NCBI GenBank assembly: GCA_024398435.1
Contig: JAKSJD010000012.1
Location: 1-63,529 of the forward strand
Source: Bacteroidaceae bacterium
GTDB taxonomy: Bacteria; Bacteroidota; Bacteroidia; Bacteroidales; Bacteroidaceae
Direction: 5' to 3'
DNA: 63,529 bases
This document shows positions 7,085 through 39,287 of the stretch, piece by piece (position 1 is the stretch's first letter; every line of letters begins with the position of its first letter). A program made the translations under genes and the position numbers. Below the pieces are notes generated by a model that was not told where the DNA came from, did not search any database, and saw only the letters and a program-made list of their open reading frames with translations.

Positions 7085-7213
7085 CTTTTTTTATATGTTA
7101 TTTTAAATTTCCTTTTTATATTATAATAATCTTTTATTAGACTGTCTTTCTTTTAGAAAGTTTAATTTGAATGTGCTTTTTTTGTTGCTTTTTATAAAAT
7201 GGTGTTGGAAAAA

Positions 7214-7570
7214 AGCAGTTGGCCTATAAGCCGGGTTCTGTACTTCCGAAGGGAAGCGTCTGCCATTTATCTACGACCAATGTCACCATTGGCCTCAAGC
7301 GTTCTACCCTGTAGCTTGGGCGAGCTACCCTCAAGCGCTACTATACATGAACTTGCAGCTTCCAAGATGCACAGCCGAAGTGTCGCCACTCCGCTGGTGG
7401 GCTCTTGCCCCACCTTCTCACCCTTACCTCCGGGGAGGCGGTTGTTTTCTTCTGCATTACTCAACCCTCGCGGACTGCTACCATTTTCAGTAGTGGAATG
7501 CTCTGTGCTGCCCGGACTTTCCTCTTCCGTATTCATAAAGAATGCGTCAGCGGCAGACCGTCCAACTGCT
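7214..7570 (-). ncRNA. rnpB: RNase P RNA (class A)
   Basis: On the minus strand the RNA starts in AGCAGTTGG (7570-7562) and ends in CCAACTGCT (7222-7214), which pair as helix P1. Inside are conserved elements: the GAGGAAAGTCCGGGC core near the 5' end and ACAGAACCCGGCTTATAGGC near the 3' end. The length of about 357 nt is normal. A T-run follows P1 directly and may terminate it. A TATCTTTG promoter box lies 10 bp upstream. The 113- and 147-codon frames over this region are spurious. Confidence 0.96.
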
Positions 7571-20355: not shown

Positions 20356-20378
20356 CAGAATAATTTAGATTGGATAAT

Positions 20379-21821
20379 ATGAAACAGAGAACAATACTTG
20401 CAGTTGTGGCTCTTGCTACTCTGCTGTTGGTGGCTTGTGATAAGGTGGAACAAGGTTCCACAGCTGTACCAAAAGAGGCTTCAGTGGTTGTGAGCACCAA
20501 CATTATCAACCTTACAAAGAAGAGTGATTTCAGCAATTCGCCTCTCTACAAGATGTTGCAGACAGGAGTGGGTGCTGTGGTTTCCTCAGATGTGAATGGT
20601 AAGCTTGATATGATTGCCAAGGATCCATCTGTTACAGGTCTTAATCTTGAAGCTCTAGCGTATGCTTTCATCACTCCAAGTCAGCATGCAGGATTGGCAT
20701 TGAGAGTGGATGATGAATCGTTGCTTGAGGAGTTCGTGGCTGAATTGGCAGAGCAAGCAGTATGTACGAGGATGAAGGAGCATGATGGGCTGAAATGGGT
20801 GAGATTGTTGGATGACTTTGATGTTTGTTTTGATGATAATACGCTGCTTATATTCACTCCTCTGGATGGCAATGTGAACCATCAGCAAGATGAGCAGATG
20901 ATGTTGGCCTTGATGAATCAGGATTATGATGAGTCGTTTGCTTCCACTTCTCATGCTCAACATATGACGGAGACTGGTTGTGAGGATATTGCCGTGTATG
21001 CCAATATGGGTGCCTTGCCAAAGGAATTGGTGGATCAATACAAGCAAGTGCTGCCTAAGGGAGCAAAGTATTCGGATATCAGTTTGGTGGCTGGAGTGGA
21101 TTTCAAGAAGGGCAGTGTGAGTTTCAAGTCGCTTTGCTATAGTGAGAACGAGAAGGTTCAGGCTATGATTGATGAGGCTGGCAGTGCTTTCCAGACTGTA
21201 AGTGGAGAGTTTCTGAACAAGATACCTCGCAGTGCTAAGGCTTGGATGTGTATGGGCCTTCATGGAGATAAGGCTCTGGAGAAGCTGAAGCAGATTCCAC
21301 AGGTGAAGGAGTTGCTTATTGGTGCCAATCTGGGAATGGATATCGACAATATGATCCGTGCTATTGATGGTGATGTGTTGCTGTTTACTTATCAAACAGA
21401 GATGCTCAGTGACAATTTCTACATTGTGGCTCAGCTTGATAATACTGATTTCCTTGATGATGTGGACTATTGGATTAGTTCGGCAAAGGAATATGGATTG
21501 ACTCTTGCTCCATGTGGAGAAGGCTATAAGCTCTCTGGTGGTGAGAGTTCTAGAGGTGATTTGTATTGGATGGTGAACGATAAGAATCTCTATATATCAT
21601 CTATGCCTTGTGATCCACTTACAGACCAAGGTACGAATGCATTCTATGACCAGGCAAAGGAGAACCAGATGTTTGCTTTGGTTGATTTATCTACTGCAAT
21701 ACCTATCTTCTCATCAGTAAGCTTGAGTTCTACTCGTGCTGGAGAACTGAATGTGGAACTGAAGTCGGAGAGTATTGCTGAAAACATATTGAAACTATTG
21801 ATTCGCTCATGGAACAAATAA
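20379..21821 (+). CDS. DUF4836-family lipoprotein
   Basis: Starting at ATG 20379 gives 480 residues with a lipobox (LLLVACDKVE). The rest is a soluble domain with repeated blocks such as LYKMLQTGVGAVVSSDVNG, LALRVDDESLLEEFVAEL and DGDVLLFTYQTEM, consistent with DUF4836, whose function is unknown. Its final codons overlap the ABC ATPase start (ATG at 21809), so the two are translationally coupled. A role beside the transporter in the envelope is inferred from that linkage. Confidence 0.82.
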   Translation: MKQRTILAVVALATLLLVACDKVEQGSTAVPKEASVVVSTNIINLTKKSDFSNSPLYKMLQTGVGAVVSSDVNGKLDMIAKDPSVTGLNLEALAYAFITPSQHAGLALRVDDESLLEEFVAELAEQAVCTRMKEHDGLKWVRLLDDFDVCFDDNTLLIFTPLDGNVNHQQDEQMMLALMNQDYDESFASTSHAQHMTETGCEDIAVYANMGALPKELVDQYKQVLPKGAKYSDISLVAGVDFKKGSVSFKSLCYSENEKVQAMIDEAGSAFQTVSGEFLNKIPRSAKAWMCMGLHGDKALEKLKQIPQVKELLIGANLGMDIDNMIRAIDGDVLLFTYQTEMLSDNFYIVAQLDNTDFLDDVDYWISSAKEYGLTLAPCGEGYKLSGGESSRGDLYWMVNDKNLYISSMPCDPLTDQGTNAFYDQAKENQMFALVDLSTAIPIFSSVSLSSTRAGELNVELKSESIAENILKLLIRSWNK

Positions 21822-22453
21822 CGCTTCAACATACCTTGCCAAAGGTTTTCGTAGGTCAGGACCATGCTGAGAGTGGTGTATGGATGAAGGACATTGCTTT
21901 CAGGAAGGGGCTTGTATATCTTGTGGAGGCCAATTCCGGAACTGGCAAGTCTTCTCTTTGCAGCTATATATTCGGCTACAGAAAGGATTATGAGGGCAGG
22001 ATACTCTTTGATGATAAGGATATTTCTCTGCTCAAGACAAATGATTGGGTAAGTATTCGTCAGAAGTCGCTTTCATTGCTTTGGCAGGAGTTGAGACTCT
22101 TCCCAGAACTGACTGCAATGGAGAATATCCAGATAAAGAACAAGCTCACAGGCTTTCAGACTCAAGAACAGATTGACAGGTGGTTTGACATGCTTGGCAT
22201 TACGGATAGGAAGAATACTTTGATAGGCCGTATGTCATTTGGGCAGCAACAGCGTGTAGCCCTTATCCGTGCTCTTTGTCAACCATTTGACTTTGTGTTT
22301 GTGGATGAACCTATAAGCCATCTTGATGATGCCAACAGCCAGATAGTTGGTCGGATTCTGCTTGAAGAGGCTAAGCGTCAGGGAGCAGGAATTGTGGTTA
22401 CGAGCATTGGCAAGCATATAGAGATGAAATATGATGAAATACTGAAACTATAA
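21809..22453 (+). CDS. ABC transporter ATP-binding protein with atypical motifs
   Basis: This 214-residue ATPase has a degenerate Walker A (EANSGTGKSS), Q-loop LLWQELRLFPELT, signature MSFGQQQRVALIRAL instead of LSGGQ, and Walker B FDFVFVDEPISHLDD. The H-loop histidine appears missing: the expected VTHD position reads VVTSIGKH. It is followed 20 bp later by an FtsX-like permease, so the pair forms a MacB/LolCDE-class mechanotransmitter. The motif drift suggests slow or altered ATP hydrolysis. The upstream overlap with the DUF4836 gene suggests a shared complex. Confidence 0.88.
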   Translation: MEQITLQHTLPKVFVGQDHAESGVWMKDIAFRKGLVYLVEANSGTGKSSLCSYIFGYRKDYEGRILFDDKDISLLKTNDWVSIRQKSLSLLWQELRLFPELTAMENIQIKNKLTGFQTQEQIDRWFDMLGITDRKNTLIGRMSFGQQQRVALIRALCQPFDFVFVDEPISHLDDANSQIVGRILLEEAKRQGAGIVVTSIGKHIEMKYDEILKL

Positions 22454-22472: not shown

Positions 22473-23672
22473 ATGCAATTAGTTTGGAAACTACTCAGAC
22501 AGCATATAAGCATACCACAGTTTGCAGGTTTCTTTCTTGCCAATCTTGTGGGAATGACCATCATATTGCTTGGTCTTCAGTTCTATACTGACATTCAGTC
22601 GGTGTATGAAGGAGAGGACAGCTTCATGAAGGCCGACTATTTCATCATCAACAAGAAGATAAGTGCTGTGACAACGCTTACGGGTAAGTCGAATGCTTTC
22701 TCTGCAGGTGAGATGGAGGAATTGGCCTCTCAGCCATTCATTGAAAAGCTTGGTAAGTTCACTTCTTCTGCCTATGATGTGAAGGCTACATTCAATCTTG
22801 AGGAGGGAACAAGCTTCTCAACGGAGATGTTCTTTGAATCAGTGCCAGATGAGTTTGTGGATGTGAAGTCGGAAGACTGGAAGTTCCAGAAGGGCTCAAA
22901 GGATATACCTATCATCTTGCCACGCAACTATCTTGATCTCTACAACTTTGGTTATGCACAGAGTCGTAGTCTGCCAAAGCTTTCAGAAGGTATTCTGGGT
23001 ATGATTCGCCTAAAGATAAACATAGACGGAATGGGTATGCATGATGTGTATGAGGGTAGGATAGTGGGGTTCAGCAGTAGGTTGAACACGATTCTTGTGC
23101 CTCAGGAGTTTATGGATTGGGCCAATGCCACTTATGCTGCTGATAAGGCTTCTCCTGCCACTCGCTTGATTATGCAGGTGAACAATCCTACAGATGACCG
23201 CATCACAAGTTATCTTCAGGACAATGGCTATGAGACTGATCAGGACAAGCTCTCTGCCAGCAAGACTACATTCATTCTCCGACTTGTTGTGGGCATAGTG
23301 ATGACGATTGGTCTTGTGATATGTATTCTCTCGTTCTACATACTGATGCTGAGCGTCTATTTGCTTGTGGAGAAGAATATGACGAAGCTTGAGAACTTGT
23401 TGCTCATTGGCTATTCTCCTCGTAAGGTGTCAATGCCATACCAAGTGCTGACGGTAGGTCTGAATGTCCTTGTGTTCATCATTGCTGTGGTGGTGTTGAT
23501 GATTGCCAGAGGTCAGTATTTGACTATGTTTGAATCGTTCTTCCCAGAAATGCAGACACCAAGCATGATGCCTACAATGGGTGTTGGTATTGGTTTGCTT
23601 GTTGTTGTGTCTGTAGTCAATATAATCGTAGTATATACTAAAGTAATGTCGATATGGAAAAGGAAAGATTAG
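22473..23672 (+). CDS. FtsX/LolC-like ABC transporter permease
   Basis: The 399-residue protein has one N-terminal helix (FAGFFLANLVGMTIILLGLQF), a periplasmic domain of about 230 residues, and three C-terminal helices (LVVGIVMTIGLVICILSFYILM; VLTVGLNVLVFIIAVVVLMI; VGIGLLVVVSVVNIIVVYT). The loop LVEKNMTKLENLLLIGYSPRKV matches the cytoplasmic loop of FtsX/MacB permeases. Substrate is unknown; lipoprotein release or envelope regulation are possible. It overlaps the next gene by 19 bp. It differs from the MacB pair at 2.4-4.5 kb in having no adaptor or TolC partner nearby. Confidence 0.85.
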   Translation: MQLVWKLLRQHISIPQFAGFFLANLVGMTIILLGLQFYTDIQSVYEGEDSFMKADYFIINKKISAVTTLTGKSNAFSAGEMEELASQPFIEKLGKFTSSAYDVKATFNLEEGTSFSTEMFFESVPDEFVDVKSEDWKFQKGSKDIPIILPRNYLDLYNFGYAQSRSLPKLSEGILGMIRLKINIDGMGMHDVYEGRIVGFSSRLNTILVPQEFMDWANATYAADKASPATRLIMQVNNPTDDRITSYLQDNGYETDQDKLSASKTTFILRLVVGIVMTIGLVICILSFYILMLSVYLLVEKNMTKLENLLLIGYSPRKVSMPYQVLTVGLNVLVFIIAVVVLMIARGQYLTMFESFFPEMQTPSMMPTMGVGIGLLVVVSVVNIIVVYTKVMSIWKRKD

Positions 23673-25111
23673 TCCAGTTGTTTGAGAGCAGTCTTGGCAA
23701 GAGAGTGGCAAAGATTGAGCATCTCTTTGGAGGAGGAGGCAGCAGCAGGAAGTATTTTGTTATCACTGCTACTGATGGAAGTTCGGTGTATGGAGTGACA
23801 AGCAAGTCACCAGAAGAGAATCTTGCATTCTACAATCTCTCTCAGCAGTTTGGGCAGAAGGGACTTCCTGTTCCAAAGGTGTATGGCATCAGTGAGGACC
23901 ATCTTTGCTATCTTCAGGAGAATCTTGGTACCACCACTCTCATGCAGTATATCAAGGCCAGAAGGAATGCAGATGGAAGCTATAATGAGGAGGCTGTCAG
24001 CATGCTGAAACGTGTAATCAGCCAGTTGCCCGATTTTCAGTTTAAGGGAGCCAGTGGATATATCTTCCAGTTGTGTTATCCTGTGCCTGCAATGGATGCC
24101 ATGTCCATCATGTTCGACTTGAACTACTTCAAGTATTGCTTCGTGAAGTTGCTTGGCATAGAGTTCAATGAAGTACATCTTCAGGAAGACTATGAGAAGC
24201 TTACAGTTGACCTTCTTGCTGAATGTAAGAACAATTTCCTTTATCGTGATTTCCAGTCACGCAATGTGATGATACATAATGGAGAGCCACGCTATATTGA
24301 CTATCAGGGAGGCAGACGTGGTCCAATCTATTATGATGTGGCCTCTTTCCTTTGGCAGGCATCAGCCAACTACAGTGACAGTTTGCGTGAAGAATTGGTG
24401 GATGTCTACTTGCAGTTGTTGGCAAAGTATCAGGATGTGAGGAAAGAAGACTTCCTGAGACATCTTCGCTTGTTTGTGTTGTTCCGTACAATGCAAGTAC
24501 TTGGTGCCTATGGATTCCGTGGATTGTGGGAGAAGAAGCAACACTTCATAGATAGCATTCCTCAGGCAATGAAGAATCTGGAGATGCTTGTGGAGAAGGG
24601 AGTGGTGAACGAATATCCTTATCTGAAGGAAGTGTGCCAGCAGTTGGTGAGAGAGTATGCAAGCAATTCTGCATTCAGCATTTTGAATCCTGCTTTTAGA
24701 ACTCCAAGTTTGGTTGTTACCGTTTATAGCTTCTCATACAAGAAAGGCATTCCAGTTGACAACAGTGGACATGGAGGTGGCTATATCTTTGATTGCCGTG
24801 GTACAAACAATCCTGGCCGTTATGAGGAGTACAAGCATCTTACTGGACTTGACAAGCCAGTGATTGACTTCCTTGAGAATGATGGAGAGATACTGCGGTT
24901 CCTCAACAATGTGTATGAGATAGTTGATTTCCATGCCAAGCGATTTATTGAGCGTGATTTCACTCATCTCATGGTAGCCTTTGGATGTACTGGAGGTCAG
25001 CATCGGAGTGTATATTGTGCCCAACATATGGCCCAGCATCTTCATGATAAGTTTGGTGTGAAGGTCATTGTATGCCACAGAGAACAGGCAATGGAAGAGG
25101 TGATTGGATAG
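23654..25111 (+). CDS. AmgK-like sugar kinase fused to RapZ C-terminal domain
   Basis: A 485-residue two-domain protein. Residues 1-330 form an APH/AmgK-type kinase: glycine-rich loop HLFGGGGSSRKYF, catalytic loop NFLYRDFQSRNVM, metal-binding IDYQGGRRGPIYYDVASFLW. AmgK phosphorylates MurNAc and GlcNAc at C1 in peptidoglycan recycling. Residues 340-485 match the RapZ C-terminal domain: VYSFSYKKGIPV, YIFDCRGTNNPG, LTGLDKPVIDFL and MVAFGCTGGQHRSVYCA. In E. coli this domain binds glucosamine 6-phosphate. The RapZ N-terminal P-loop part is absent. A MurU-like gene follows. A self-sensing salvage kinase is inferred, not shown. Confidence 0.88.
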   Translation: MEKERLVQLFESSLGKRVAKIEHLFGGGGSSRKYFVITATDGSSVYGVTSKSPEENLAFYNLSQQFGQKGLPVPKVYGISEDHLCYLQENLGTTTLMQYIKARRNADGSYNEEAVSMLKRVISQLPDFQFKGASGYIFQLCYPVPAMDAMSIMFDLNYFKYCFVKLLGIEFNEVHLQEDYEKLTVDLLAECKNNFLYRDFQSRNVMIHNGEPRYIDYQGGRRGPIYYDVASFLWQASANYSDSLREELVDVYLQLLAKYQDVRKEDFLRHLRLFVLFRTMQVLGAYGFRGLWEKKQHFIDSIPQAMKNLEMLVEKGVVNEYPYLKEVCQQLVREYASNSAFSILNPAFRTPSLVVTVYSFSYKKGIPVDNSGHGGGYIFDCRGTNNPGRYEEYKHLTGLDKPVIDFLENDGEILRFLNNVYEIVDFHAKRFIERDFTHLMVAFGCTGGQHRSVYCAQHMAQHLHDKFGVKVIVCHREQAMEEVIG

Positions 25112-25112
25112 A

Positions 25113-25195
25113 AGCCCCCCTCCTGTCCCCCCATGGGGGGATGATGGATTACGGATTACAGATTACGGGTTACATTGTAAATAGTACTTGATTAG
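25113..25195. repeat. C/G-rich palindromic element plus GATTACR heptads
   Basis: The 84-bp gap between the kinase and nucleotidyltransferase genes consists largely of repeats. First comes a C-run/G-run block (CCCCCCATGGGGGG, 25127-25140). Then heptads GATTACG, GATTACA, GATTACG and GGTTACA follow at 25147-25174. The heptads match those inside the TPR gene at 28017-28051 in reverse complement. Confidence 0.75.
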
Positions 25196-25963
25196 ATGAA
25201 CGTATTTATTCTTGCAGCAGGACTGGGTACTCGGCTCAAACCACTTACCAACACCATGCCAAAGGCTTTGGTCAGAGTAGGGGGTAAGCCACTATTGCAA
25301 CATCTGCTTGATAAACTCAATCGCCAGTGCAATGGCGAGCCACTCAATATCGTGGTGAATGTCCATCATTTTGGAGAACAGATAATCGACTATCTGAAGG
25401 ATACTGACATACGTATAAGTGATGAACGCTCACAGTTGCTCGATACTGGTGGTGCTCTGCGTCAGGCATTGCCAATGTTCTTTTCAATGCAGGATGCAGG
25501 ATGCAGGATGCAGGATTCTGTTTTGGTGCACAATGTGGATATCTTCAGTAATGAGAATCTACACGATTTCTACCATGAAGCTTCAGCTGATGAGGAGGCC
25601 ATGGTAGTGATGCTCGTGAGTGAAAGGCAGACATCGAGATACCTTTTGTTTGATGATGCGAATCGTTTGGTTGGATGGACCAACATACAGACAGGAGAGG
25701 TGAAGAGCCCATACTCGGACTTGAATGTGGAAGCTTGCCACAGATATGCTTTTTCAGGCATACAGGTAGTGAAGTCGTCACTCATGCCATATCTTGAAAG
25801 GCAGACCGAACCAAAGTTCTCAGTCATCGATTTCTACCTCAGTATCTGTCATGAAGTGTGCATACGAGCAGCTGTAAGACCTTCTCTCCAACTGCTTGAT
25901 GTGGGCAAGATGGATGCCCTTGAGTCAGCAGAAGCTGTTAGTGGGAAGCTGGTGGAGGGGTAA
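25196..25963 (+). CDS. MurU-like sugar-1-phosphate nucleotidyltransferase
   Basis: The 255-residue protein has the Rossmann-type NTP transferase signature: FILAAGLGTRLKPLTNTMPKAL, then VRVGGKPLLQHLL, a DTGGALRQAL base/sugar site and a metal-binding VHNVDIF. MurU converts MurNAc-1-phosphate to UDP-MurNAc, the step after AmgK, bypassing de novo UDP-MurNAc synthesis; adjacency to the AmgK-RapZ gene supports this. Other sugar nucleotidyltransferases cannot be excluded. Residues 98-107 (MQDAGCRMQD) are encoded by four perfect ATGCAGG repeats, placed just before the metal-site strand. Confidence 0.82.
   Translation: MNVFILAAGLGTRLKPLTNTMPKALVRVGGKPLLQHLLDKLNRQCNGEPLNIVVNVHHFGEQIIDYLKDTDIRISDERSQLLDTGGALRQALPMFFSMQDAGCRMQDSVLVHNVDIFSNENLHDFYHEASADEEAMVVMLVSERQTSRYLLFDDANRLVGWTNIQTGEVKSPYSDLNVEACHRYAFSGIQVVKSSLMPYLERQTEPKFSVIDFYLSICHEVCIRAAVRPSLQLLDVGKMDALESAEAVSGKLVEG
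25487..25514 (+). repeat. Perfect 4 x 7 bp repeat (ATGCAGG) inside the murU-like gene
   Basis: Four identical ATGCAGG units run from 25487 to 25514 within the coding frame. Seven is not a multiple of three, so gain or loss of one unit would shift frame and truncate the protein. The frame is open with the present number. Confidence 0.92.
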
Positions 25964-26090: not shown

Positions 26091-26120
26091 TGGTAAAAAT
26101 AATAATATGATTTAGCTTTG
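26091..26120 (+). promoter_or_regulatory. Promoter of the LRR lipoprotein gene
   Basis: TAGCTTTG at 26113-26120 fits the -7 box, with TTGG at 26091 as a possible -33 box. The start codon lies 25 bp downstream. Confidence 0.6.
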
Positions 26121-26144
26121 CAATGTTTTTTTAAAGATATAACT

Positions 26145-27143
26145 ATGAGGAAAATCAGTTATTTAATGATTATGCTCATGATTGGTTTCGTGGCCATTTC
26201 ATGCAGCAAAGACGATGAAGAAAAAGTCGAGGAGGAAGAGATAGATAGTTCGATTATCGCCAAAGGCACATGCGGTGAGAATATTGATTGGGTGTTGGAC
26301 CGCGATAGTGTTCTGACTATTTCCGGAACCGGCAAAATGACAGATTATATAGATATGGCCGACCCTTGGTATCCGCATAAAACAGATATCAAAGCCATAA
26401 AGATTGAGCAAGGGGTGACAAGTATTGGCAATTGTGCATTCTCTGATTGTTCAAGCATGACATCAATAGAGATACCCAATACAGTCGCTTCTATTGGCAG
26501 TGGGGCGTTTGTTGGTTGTTCTGCCCTGACATCAATCACAATCCCCAATTCCGTAACAGATATTGGAGTGTATGCATTTTCTGGTTGCAGTGGTTTGACT
26601 GCTATCGAAATACCACAGTCGGTCACTAATATTGAGAATATGGCATTTGCTGGTTGTACGGGTTTGACTTCTGTCACTATCCCTAAATCGGTAACGAAAT
26701 TTGGAACGAGAGTTTTCATTGAGTGCGATAAGTTGGCAGAGCTCATCGTTGAAGATGGCAATAGGAACTACGATTCGCGAAACAACTGCAATGCAATCAT
26801 AGAAACAGCATCCAACACTTTGATGGCTGGGTGTATGAATACTTCGATACCTAATACCGTTTCAACGATAGAATTTGGTGCATTTTGGGGGTGTGATGGA
26901 ATGAATGCCATCAAGATACCGAGTTCGGTATCAGATATCAAATCATTGGCATTTTTCGATTGTAGGTCGCTCAAGTCAATTTCAGTAGCATGGGAAACTC
27001 CGTTGAATGTACCAGATGATATCTTCAATAGTGTGCCAAAAGCCAAATGCACACTTTATGTTCCTAATGGTACATCGAATGCATACCAATCAGCGAAAGT
27101 GTGGAATGAATTCCAGAACATAGAGGAATATCCTGTAAAATAG
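26145..27143 (+). CDS. BspA-like LRR_5 surface lipoprotein
   Basis: The start at ATG 26145 gives 332 residues with a lipobox (GFVAISCSKDDEE); a longer frame from 26118 only adds promoter-proximal sequence. After an acidic spacer, a short domain (GTCGENIDWVLDRDSVLTISGTG) leads into about seven LRR_5 repeats of the form xxIGxxAFxGCxxLTSITIPNSV. The C-terminus (LYVPNGTSNAYQSAKVWNEF) is typical of BspA-like proteins. Such proteins sit on the cell surface and may bind host or microbial ligands. The ligand cannot be told from sequence. It is monocistronic. Confidence 0.9.
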   Translation: MRKISYLMIMLMIGFVAISCSKDDEEKVEEEEIDSSIIAKGTCGENIDWVLDRDSVLTISGTGKMTDYIDMADPWYPHKTDIKAIKIEQGVTSIGNCAFSDCSSMTSIEIPNTVASIGSGAFVGCSALTSITIPNSVTDIGVYAFSGCSGLTAIEIPQSVTNIENMAFAGCTGLTSVTIPKSVTKFGTRVFIECDKLAELIVEDGNRNYDSRNNCNAIIETASNTLMAGCMNTSIPNTVSTIEFGAFWGCDGMNAIKIPSSVSDIKSLAFFDCRSLKSISVAWETPLNVPDDIFNSVPKAKCTLYVPNGTSNAYQSAKVWNEFQNIEEYPVK

Positions 27144-39098: not shown

Positions 39099-39287
39099 AC
39101 AATAGCGGGGCTTCGGATCGATTGGGATACTCATCAAATTATATCGAAAACCGAGACAAGCTTCATGCTCTAATGGCGGGCCACGCCTGGCAACAGGTAA
39201 CCTTAGAGTCGGTGGATTACAAAGGGGTATGAGCACTCAAATCTTATTCACTCGGAGTTTCATCACATCTCCACCCCGCTTTTTTTA
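39099..39287 (+). ncRNA. ssrS: Structured RNA, probably 6S RNA
   Basis: GCGGGG (39105-39110) pairs with CCCCGC (39274-39279), which is directly followed by TTTTTTT and acts as closing stem and terminator. Inside, CTCAT pairs with ATGAG, ACCGA with TCGGT and CTCTAA with TTAGAG, nested in order, giving one long interrupted rod about 185 nt in length. That shape, a strong own promoter and no reading frame fit 6S RNA, which binds RNA polymerase holoenzyme. The identity rests on architecture; another unknown structured RNA is possible. Confidence 0.65.

Follow-up and report, generated by a model that had tools for sequence, protein, structure and literature searches.

What does the C-terminal domain of RapZ, known from the Escherichia coli RNase adapter, do at the end of an APH-type sugar kinase? 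The question is raised by a gene in a 63,529-nt stretch of DNA from a Bacteroidaceae bacterium (assembly GCA_024398435.1, contig JAKSJD010000012.1, positions 1 to 63,529, forward strand), which was analysed as a whole and is here called the window. A first-pass annotation had proposed an AmgK-like kinase and a RapZ C-terminal domain (RapZ_C) in one open frame beside a MurU-like enzyme, and we find exactly this arrangement, in a single open reading frame (ORF) with intact catalytic motifs. We consider it slightly more probable than otherwise that the two genes form an AmgK-type kinase and MurU salvage pair in which RapZ_C is an attached ligand-binding regulator. The parts concerned are:

23654..25111, forward strand: fusion gene, APH/AmgK-like kinase plus RapZ C-terminal domain, 485 aa; single ORF, Pfam APH and PF22740, same architecture in homologues order-wide.
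23654..24688, forward strand: kinase part of the fusion, approximately residues 1-345.
24242..24265, forward strand: catalytic loop YRDFQSRN, residues 197-204; R198, D199, F200, R203 and N204 invariant in 36 fused sequences.
24296..24313, forward strand: metal-site motif IDYQGG, residues 215-220; I215, D216 and Q218 invariant in the same 36 sequences.
24713..25087, forward strand: RapZ C-terminal domain of the fusion, residues 354-478.
24806..24820, forward strand: NNPGR, residues 385-389; Gly at the E. coli His190 position and Arg at the Trp191 position.
24983..25009, forward strand: GCTGGQHRS, residues 444-452, conserved anion-pocket loop; equivalents of T248, G249, H252 and R253.
25196..25963, forward strand: MurU-like sugar-1-phosphate nucleotidyltransferase, 255 aa; NCBIfam NF045697 and NF045761, solved MurU structures.

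A Pfam search with the full protein matched both APH and PF22740, the latter at 116.9 bits (cut-off 27), and the Asp and Asn catalytic residues of an APH-type kinase fold are present. The named kinase matches of the protein and its relatives are AmgK models, and a profile of the kinase part retrieved the AmgK-like frame of a Neisseria stretch (E 2.2e-25) with no match in the other 308 frames searched. The RapZ N-terminal domain (RapZ_N, PF03668) is missing from the protein and had no match in the window's own genome (G000), which is 77.6% complete, as holds for every absence from this genome given below. Misassembly was rejected as the origin of the fusion on matches in other Bacteroidales genomes. 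The fusion is a real, conserved feature, a variant of a known salvage enzyme plus an added domain, and it is misleadingly named: in both annotated records, from Parabacteroides distasonis (L131) and Bacteroides finegoldii (L132), the NCBI name is 'RNase adapter RapZ', and the RapZ model covers only residues 330-465 of the P. distasonis protein, below its cut-off.

For the neighbouring enzyme, the best NCBIfam matches are NF045697 (E 3.1e-27) and NF045761 (E 7e-23), and solved MurU entries (4y7t, 4y7u, 4y7v, 8hhd) rank first in two programs, at 27-28% identity over VIA-aligned residues. Near matches of the protein also include LicC and HddC. A LicA/LicC (phosphocholine) reading is less likely: LicC is the second PDB sequence match, and MurU lies well above it by Foldseek. 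Over the 5.6 kb surrounding the AmgK-like gene of Neisseria, a MurU profile built from relatives of the window protein found no MurU; its sole match in the frames searched was E. coli GlmU (E 4e-10).

Rarity of the fusion is not borne out by counting. We sampled 198 Bacteroidales genomes evenly from a larger group; the fusion protein has a match in 167 of them and the MurU-like protein in 187. Among the matches listed, 148 genomes (150 rows, eight with a stop inside) match across both domains, which makes the fusion the usual form in the order. The other 19 genomes, with weaker matches, were re-read together with one more: both domains lie in one frame in four (G056, G071, G074, G112), part of the kinase joins RapZ_C at a contig end in two (G124, G179), two separate genes occur in five (G045, G067, G099, G123, G163) and G009 holds a fragment. 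Counting only rows among the matches listed and the best MurU row per genome, a MurU-like match follows within 2.5 kb downstream on the same strand in 85 of the 150 fusion rows (within 250 nt in 70 of these); it is on another contig in 44 and farther along the same contig in two, and the 19 rows with no listed MurU row are not to be counted as absences. Phylum-wide, PF22740 occurs in 36/296 genomes, a different sample and query from those used for the order. Named carriers are P. distasonis, B. finegoldii, Phocaeicola massiliensis and Prevotella oral taxon 299. No paper on AmgK with RapZ, or on RapZ with Bacteroides and a fusion, was found among the openly licensed PMC literature, and a description may exist elsewhere; one such paper combines RapZ and aminoglycoside phosphotransferase, its subject, in the available part, being protein-gene detection.

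The same partners also occur as separate genes. Kinase, RapZ_C and MurU-like gene are adjacent and in the order of the fusion at L117-L122, from one family outside the order, and at L123, from a different family in the phylum; the three stand in a row at 9/13 split loci (L013, L113, L117-L123). The MurU-like gene is 3.1 kb off at L110 and was not seen within the stretch at L111, L112 and L116. Two members of the split set, L013 and L116, have matches flagged with stop codons and are possibly damaged fusions. With 68 fused, 13 split and seven kinase-only rows, the kinase tree requires 12 changes, which makes repeated splitting or loss probable; 38 of its 86 inner branches are open, bootstrap is unsettled and deep support is weak. 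A single origin of the fusion is not borne out by this tree. At L124 and L125, RapZ_C is present and roughly 7.5 kb of sequence gave neither a kinase nor a MurU match. A short stand-alone RapZ_C, annotated RNase adapter RapZ, also lies near a transfer gene on a Streptomyces plasmid (L136:3995-4381); of 80 plasmid records with a match to E. coli RapZ, 26 are from Streptomyces.

Which sugar the pair handles is best approached through Tannerella forsythia, reported to be without murA, murB, glmS and glmU and to require N-acetylmuramic acid (MurNAc) from outside (PMC5790795; statements from papers cited by PMC number refer to the part of each that was available). We sampled 118 genomes in the family to which G105 belongs; six lack a MurA match, and of these six only G523 is more than 90% complete. 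We assign G523 to T. forsythia because it carries an exact copy of the published primer used on strain ATCC 43037; six other genomes tested have no copy. Searched with the P. distasonis fusion protein, G523 gives one match (76% identity), likewise a kinase and RapZ_C fusion, with RapZ_C motifs kept and a MurU-like gene adjoining; the window protein shares 48% identity with it in the kinase part and 64% in the RapZ_C part. Seven of the eight genomes searched carry the fusion. In a 2026 preprint, E. coli expressing T. forsythia AmgK and MurU was labelled by MurNAc probes as a positive control (PMC13041923); the AmgK construct was, we infer, the fusion gene of G523, which is the only kinase match there. 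The conserved MurU pairing (fused and split), the retention of fusion and MurU in MurA-less G523 and the reported working of T. forsythia AmgK/MurU make the MurNAc-salvage role proposed in the first-pass annotation likely, and the fusion is probably a working MurNAc kinase.

In E. coli RapZ, the pocket of the C-terminal domain comprises His190, Thr248, Gly249, His252 and Arg253, and the changes H190A, G249W and R253A abolish control of GlmZ (PMC9841335, PMC5737377); the site for glucosamine 6-phosphate is called uncharacterised (PMC9841335). We compared 71 fused, 13 split and eight canonical RapZ domains, leaving out 18 duplicate loci and keeping L043, L072, L073 and L115 out of the fused and split sets (L043 served as canonical); the 71 fused rows are not independent, since they count the window itself, some incomplete ORFs and the near-identical pair L035/L036. 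The equivalents of Thr248, Gly249, His252 and Arg253 are each kept in 70/71 fused and 13/13 split domains, and the single fused exception, L047, has lost the whole pocket loop. Position 191 is Arg or Lys in 68/71 fused domains. On these alignments an anion site is under constraint, but altered from the E. coli site and with several RNA contacts gone. Glucosamine 6-phosphate, the ligand first suggested, was only carried over from E. coli, and with the pocket different at positions 190 and 191 the ligand of the fused domain may differ from that of E. coli RapZ.

We infer MurNAc as the substrate of the kinase and, with less assurance, that RapZ_C senses a metabolite and regulates the enzyme. An anomeric sugar kinase of AmgK type would make MurNAc-1-phosphate, and perhaps N-acetylglucosamine (GlcNAc)-1-phosphate too; the adjoining MurU-like enzyme would convert MurNAc-1-phosphate to uridine diphosphate (UDP)-MurNAc, so that reuse of the wall sugar would bypass MurA and MurB. 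The anion pocket of RapZ_C would bind a phosphorylated amino sugar and adjust the kinase, in cis where fused and in trans where encoded by a separate gene. The signal may reflect how MurNAc is divided between catabolism (MurK/MurQ) and anabolism (AmgK/MurU), or it may be feedback from the product. Such a signal seems likelier than a choice between GlmS synthesis and salvage, because T. forsythia, reported without glmS (PMC5790795), keeps an intact domain. A sensor of this kind, with no need of the GlmY/GlmZ small RNAs, is plausible, if unproven.

Several observations weigh against an AmgK/MurU pair with a regulatory RapZ_C. The AmgK models NF045759 and NF045698 score 54.5/550 and 22.1/500 bits on the fusion, below their equivalog cut-offs, as they also do on the T. 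forsythia and P. distasonis fusions; because of these scores we call the protein AmgK-like and do not file it as AmgK. The MurU-like protein reaches 95.5/370 and 81.7/250 bits with its two NCBIfam models. The predicted structure of the fusion (pTM, predicted template modelling score, 0.69) does not fix the relative domain orientation. Genome G511, in the genus of G523, 99% complete and with MurA, has no fusion match, so the pair is dispensable there. In the order, seven of the re-read genomes have the kinase without RapZ_C (G002, G022, G096, G106, G108, G136, G178), and no MurU-like match lies within 6 kb downstream of the fusion in Prevotella record L134 or within 8 kb in L037 and L038. MurQ, the catabolic side of the proposed split, has no match in the window's own genome. 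Finally, position 190 is Gly in 70/71 fused and 13/13 split domains and His or Tyr in 8/8 canonical RapZ, and with His190 absent the E. coli ligand cannot be assumed.

RapZ_C might instead be purely structural, dimerising the kinase, docking it to MurU or stabilising it, with no sensing; we regard this as unlikely, although it is the rival to be taken most seriously. The E. coli domain dimerises (PMC5737377), a RapZ_C encoded by a separate gene would also suit a docking subunit, and at L126 and L129, two of the seven kinase-only cases, the kinase stands directly beside MurU without RapZ_C and with no other match in these genomes, which counts against a regulator as well. However, conservation of each of the four pocket residues goes beyond the apparent need of a dimer interface, and L047 lost its pocket residues together, as expected for one functional site. 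A lower probability falls to the idea that the domain retains an RNA role and controls amino-sugar mRNA or small RNA as in E. coli, which we regard as very improbable. The E. coli domain alone suffices for RNA binding (PMC5737377), Arg184 is kept in 71/71 fused domains and position 170 is Lys or Arg in 67/71. The His190 position, where H190A abolishes GlmZ cleavage control in E. coli (PMC9841335), is nonetheless Gly, which makes E. coli-type RNA control unlikely; the Arg238 position is Phe in 66/71, the basic tail is lost (although it varies in the eight canonical RapZ too), and the own genome shows no RapZ_N.

The substrate could also be another sugar, for example GlcNAc on the way to UDP-GlcNAc, or a surface-glycan sugar; this is improbable, somewhat more so than a structural RapZ_C and less so than an RNA role. 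Pseudomonas AmgK also takes GlcNAc, which appears in the names of the NCBIfam AmgK models, and LicC and HddC are near the MurU-like protein. The own genome has MurA and lacks GlmU over the cut-off. It also lacks the PF13562 uridylyltransferase, so a part in UDP-GlcNAc supply is conceivable. G059 and G165, the other two genomes sampled from its family, lack PF13562 too, and 147/198 genomes of the order have it; across the listed rows, compared by eye, fusion and PF13562 show no obvious trade-off. Against another sugar stand the first rank of MurU structures in both programs, the AmgK names of the kinase matches and the retention of fusion and MurU-like gene in T. forsythia, a species that lacks a MurA match and needs external MurNAc (PMC5790795).

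Upstream of the AmgK-like fusion lie three lineage-specific neighbours:

20370..21821, forward strand: DUF4836 protein, PF16120 (E 1.2e-60).
21809..22453, forward strand: ABC ATPase (FtsE-like), PF00005.
22473..23672, forward strand: FtsX-like membrane protein, no Pfam match at E 0.001.

The last 19 nt of the FtsX-like gene (23654-23672) are also the first of the fusion gene; L033, L034, L037, L038 and L042 share this overlap, which suggests coupled translation in this lineage. The short flanks of L002-L030 contain no FtsX-like gene. The proposal that the DUF4836 lipoprotein and ABC pair supply or sense muropeptides is unsupported as a general role: DUF4836 and ABC ATPase precede the fusion at 6/14 named fusion loci, in the window's own lineage only, and are not at L041 or L131-L134, which extend 6-8 kb upstream. 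Nor does mtgA belong to the unit as once suggested, being found at 0/14 of these loci; the test is weak at five (L034, L035, L036, L039, L040) because their contigs are shorter than 7 kb. In the E. coli rapZ region mtgA is also a few genes off, and its nearness to both genes is taken as coincidence. A BspA-type leucine-rich-repeat protein lies directly 3' of the MurU-like gene (26118-27143, forward strand). Elsewhere in the window, RNase P RNA (7211-7569, reverse strand) and the Bacteroidales-1 RNA, a suggested 6S RNA (39106-39287, forward strand), reach Rfam gathering scores.

In G096, whose AmgK-like kinase lacks RapZ_C, a RapZ_C of canonical type (NPYW) is fused to YvcK, a UDP-GlcNAc-binding protein (G096:C118, L115:1789-3207, reverse strand; TIGR01826 303.6 bits, cut-off 196), and is followed by a GlmU-like ORF (579-1661; best NCBIfam match 280/450 bits); the contig is possibly foreign to that genome. 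Judged from its domains, this protein fits a reusable amino-sugar or metabolite-sensing module, short of proof. We tentatively propose, at somewhat short of even confidence, that a RapZ_C allosteric domain controls the committed step of MurNAc salvage in Bacteroidota, and that its altered pocket (Gly and Arg/Lys for His190-Trp191) reads a phosphorylated amino sugar and sets UDP-MurNAc against catabolism, RapZ_C being a portable sensor attached to an RNA adapter in E. coli, to AmgK here and to YvcK elsewhere. A major gut order thus probably has its MurNAc-salvage kinase in this fusion, which NCBI names as an RNA-degradation adapter where annotated, and the salvage step may have a sensor of its own. 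What RapZ_C senses becomes a question for enzyme assays, independent of RNA machinery from E. coli. T. forsythia depends on MurNAc, and the kinase it probably relies on has a second conserved site.

Among known systems, AmgK, the MurNAc/GlcNAc anomeric kinase of Pseudomonas and Caulobacter, shares with the fusion the APH fold, the catalytic motifs, MurU adjacency and the likely step, but the fusion scores far under the AmgK cut-off and has an extra RapZ_C of about 125 residues. Deletion of amgK in Caulobacter is reported to make MurNAc accumulate (PMC13046382). The neighbour has MurU (4y7t, 4y7u, 4y7v, 8hhd) as its best structural and family match, while staying under the curated cut-offs. RapZ (YvcJ) has the same C-terminal fold and most of the anion pocket, whereas the fusion is without RapZ_N, has Gly and Arg/Lys for His190/Trp191 and joins the domain to a different kinase fold. 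RapZ_C-YvcK likewise attaches RapZ_C to an amino-sugar-linked protein, but with a canonical-type pocket, an N-terminal RapZ_C and a GlmU-like gene adjacent. Another close system is T. forsythia AmgK/MurU: G523 has the same type of fusion beside a MurU-like gene, and the two enzymes are reported to work in E. coli; the available part of PMC13041923 makes no mention of the RapZ_C domain that the kinase carries in G523.

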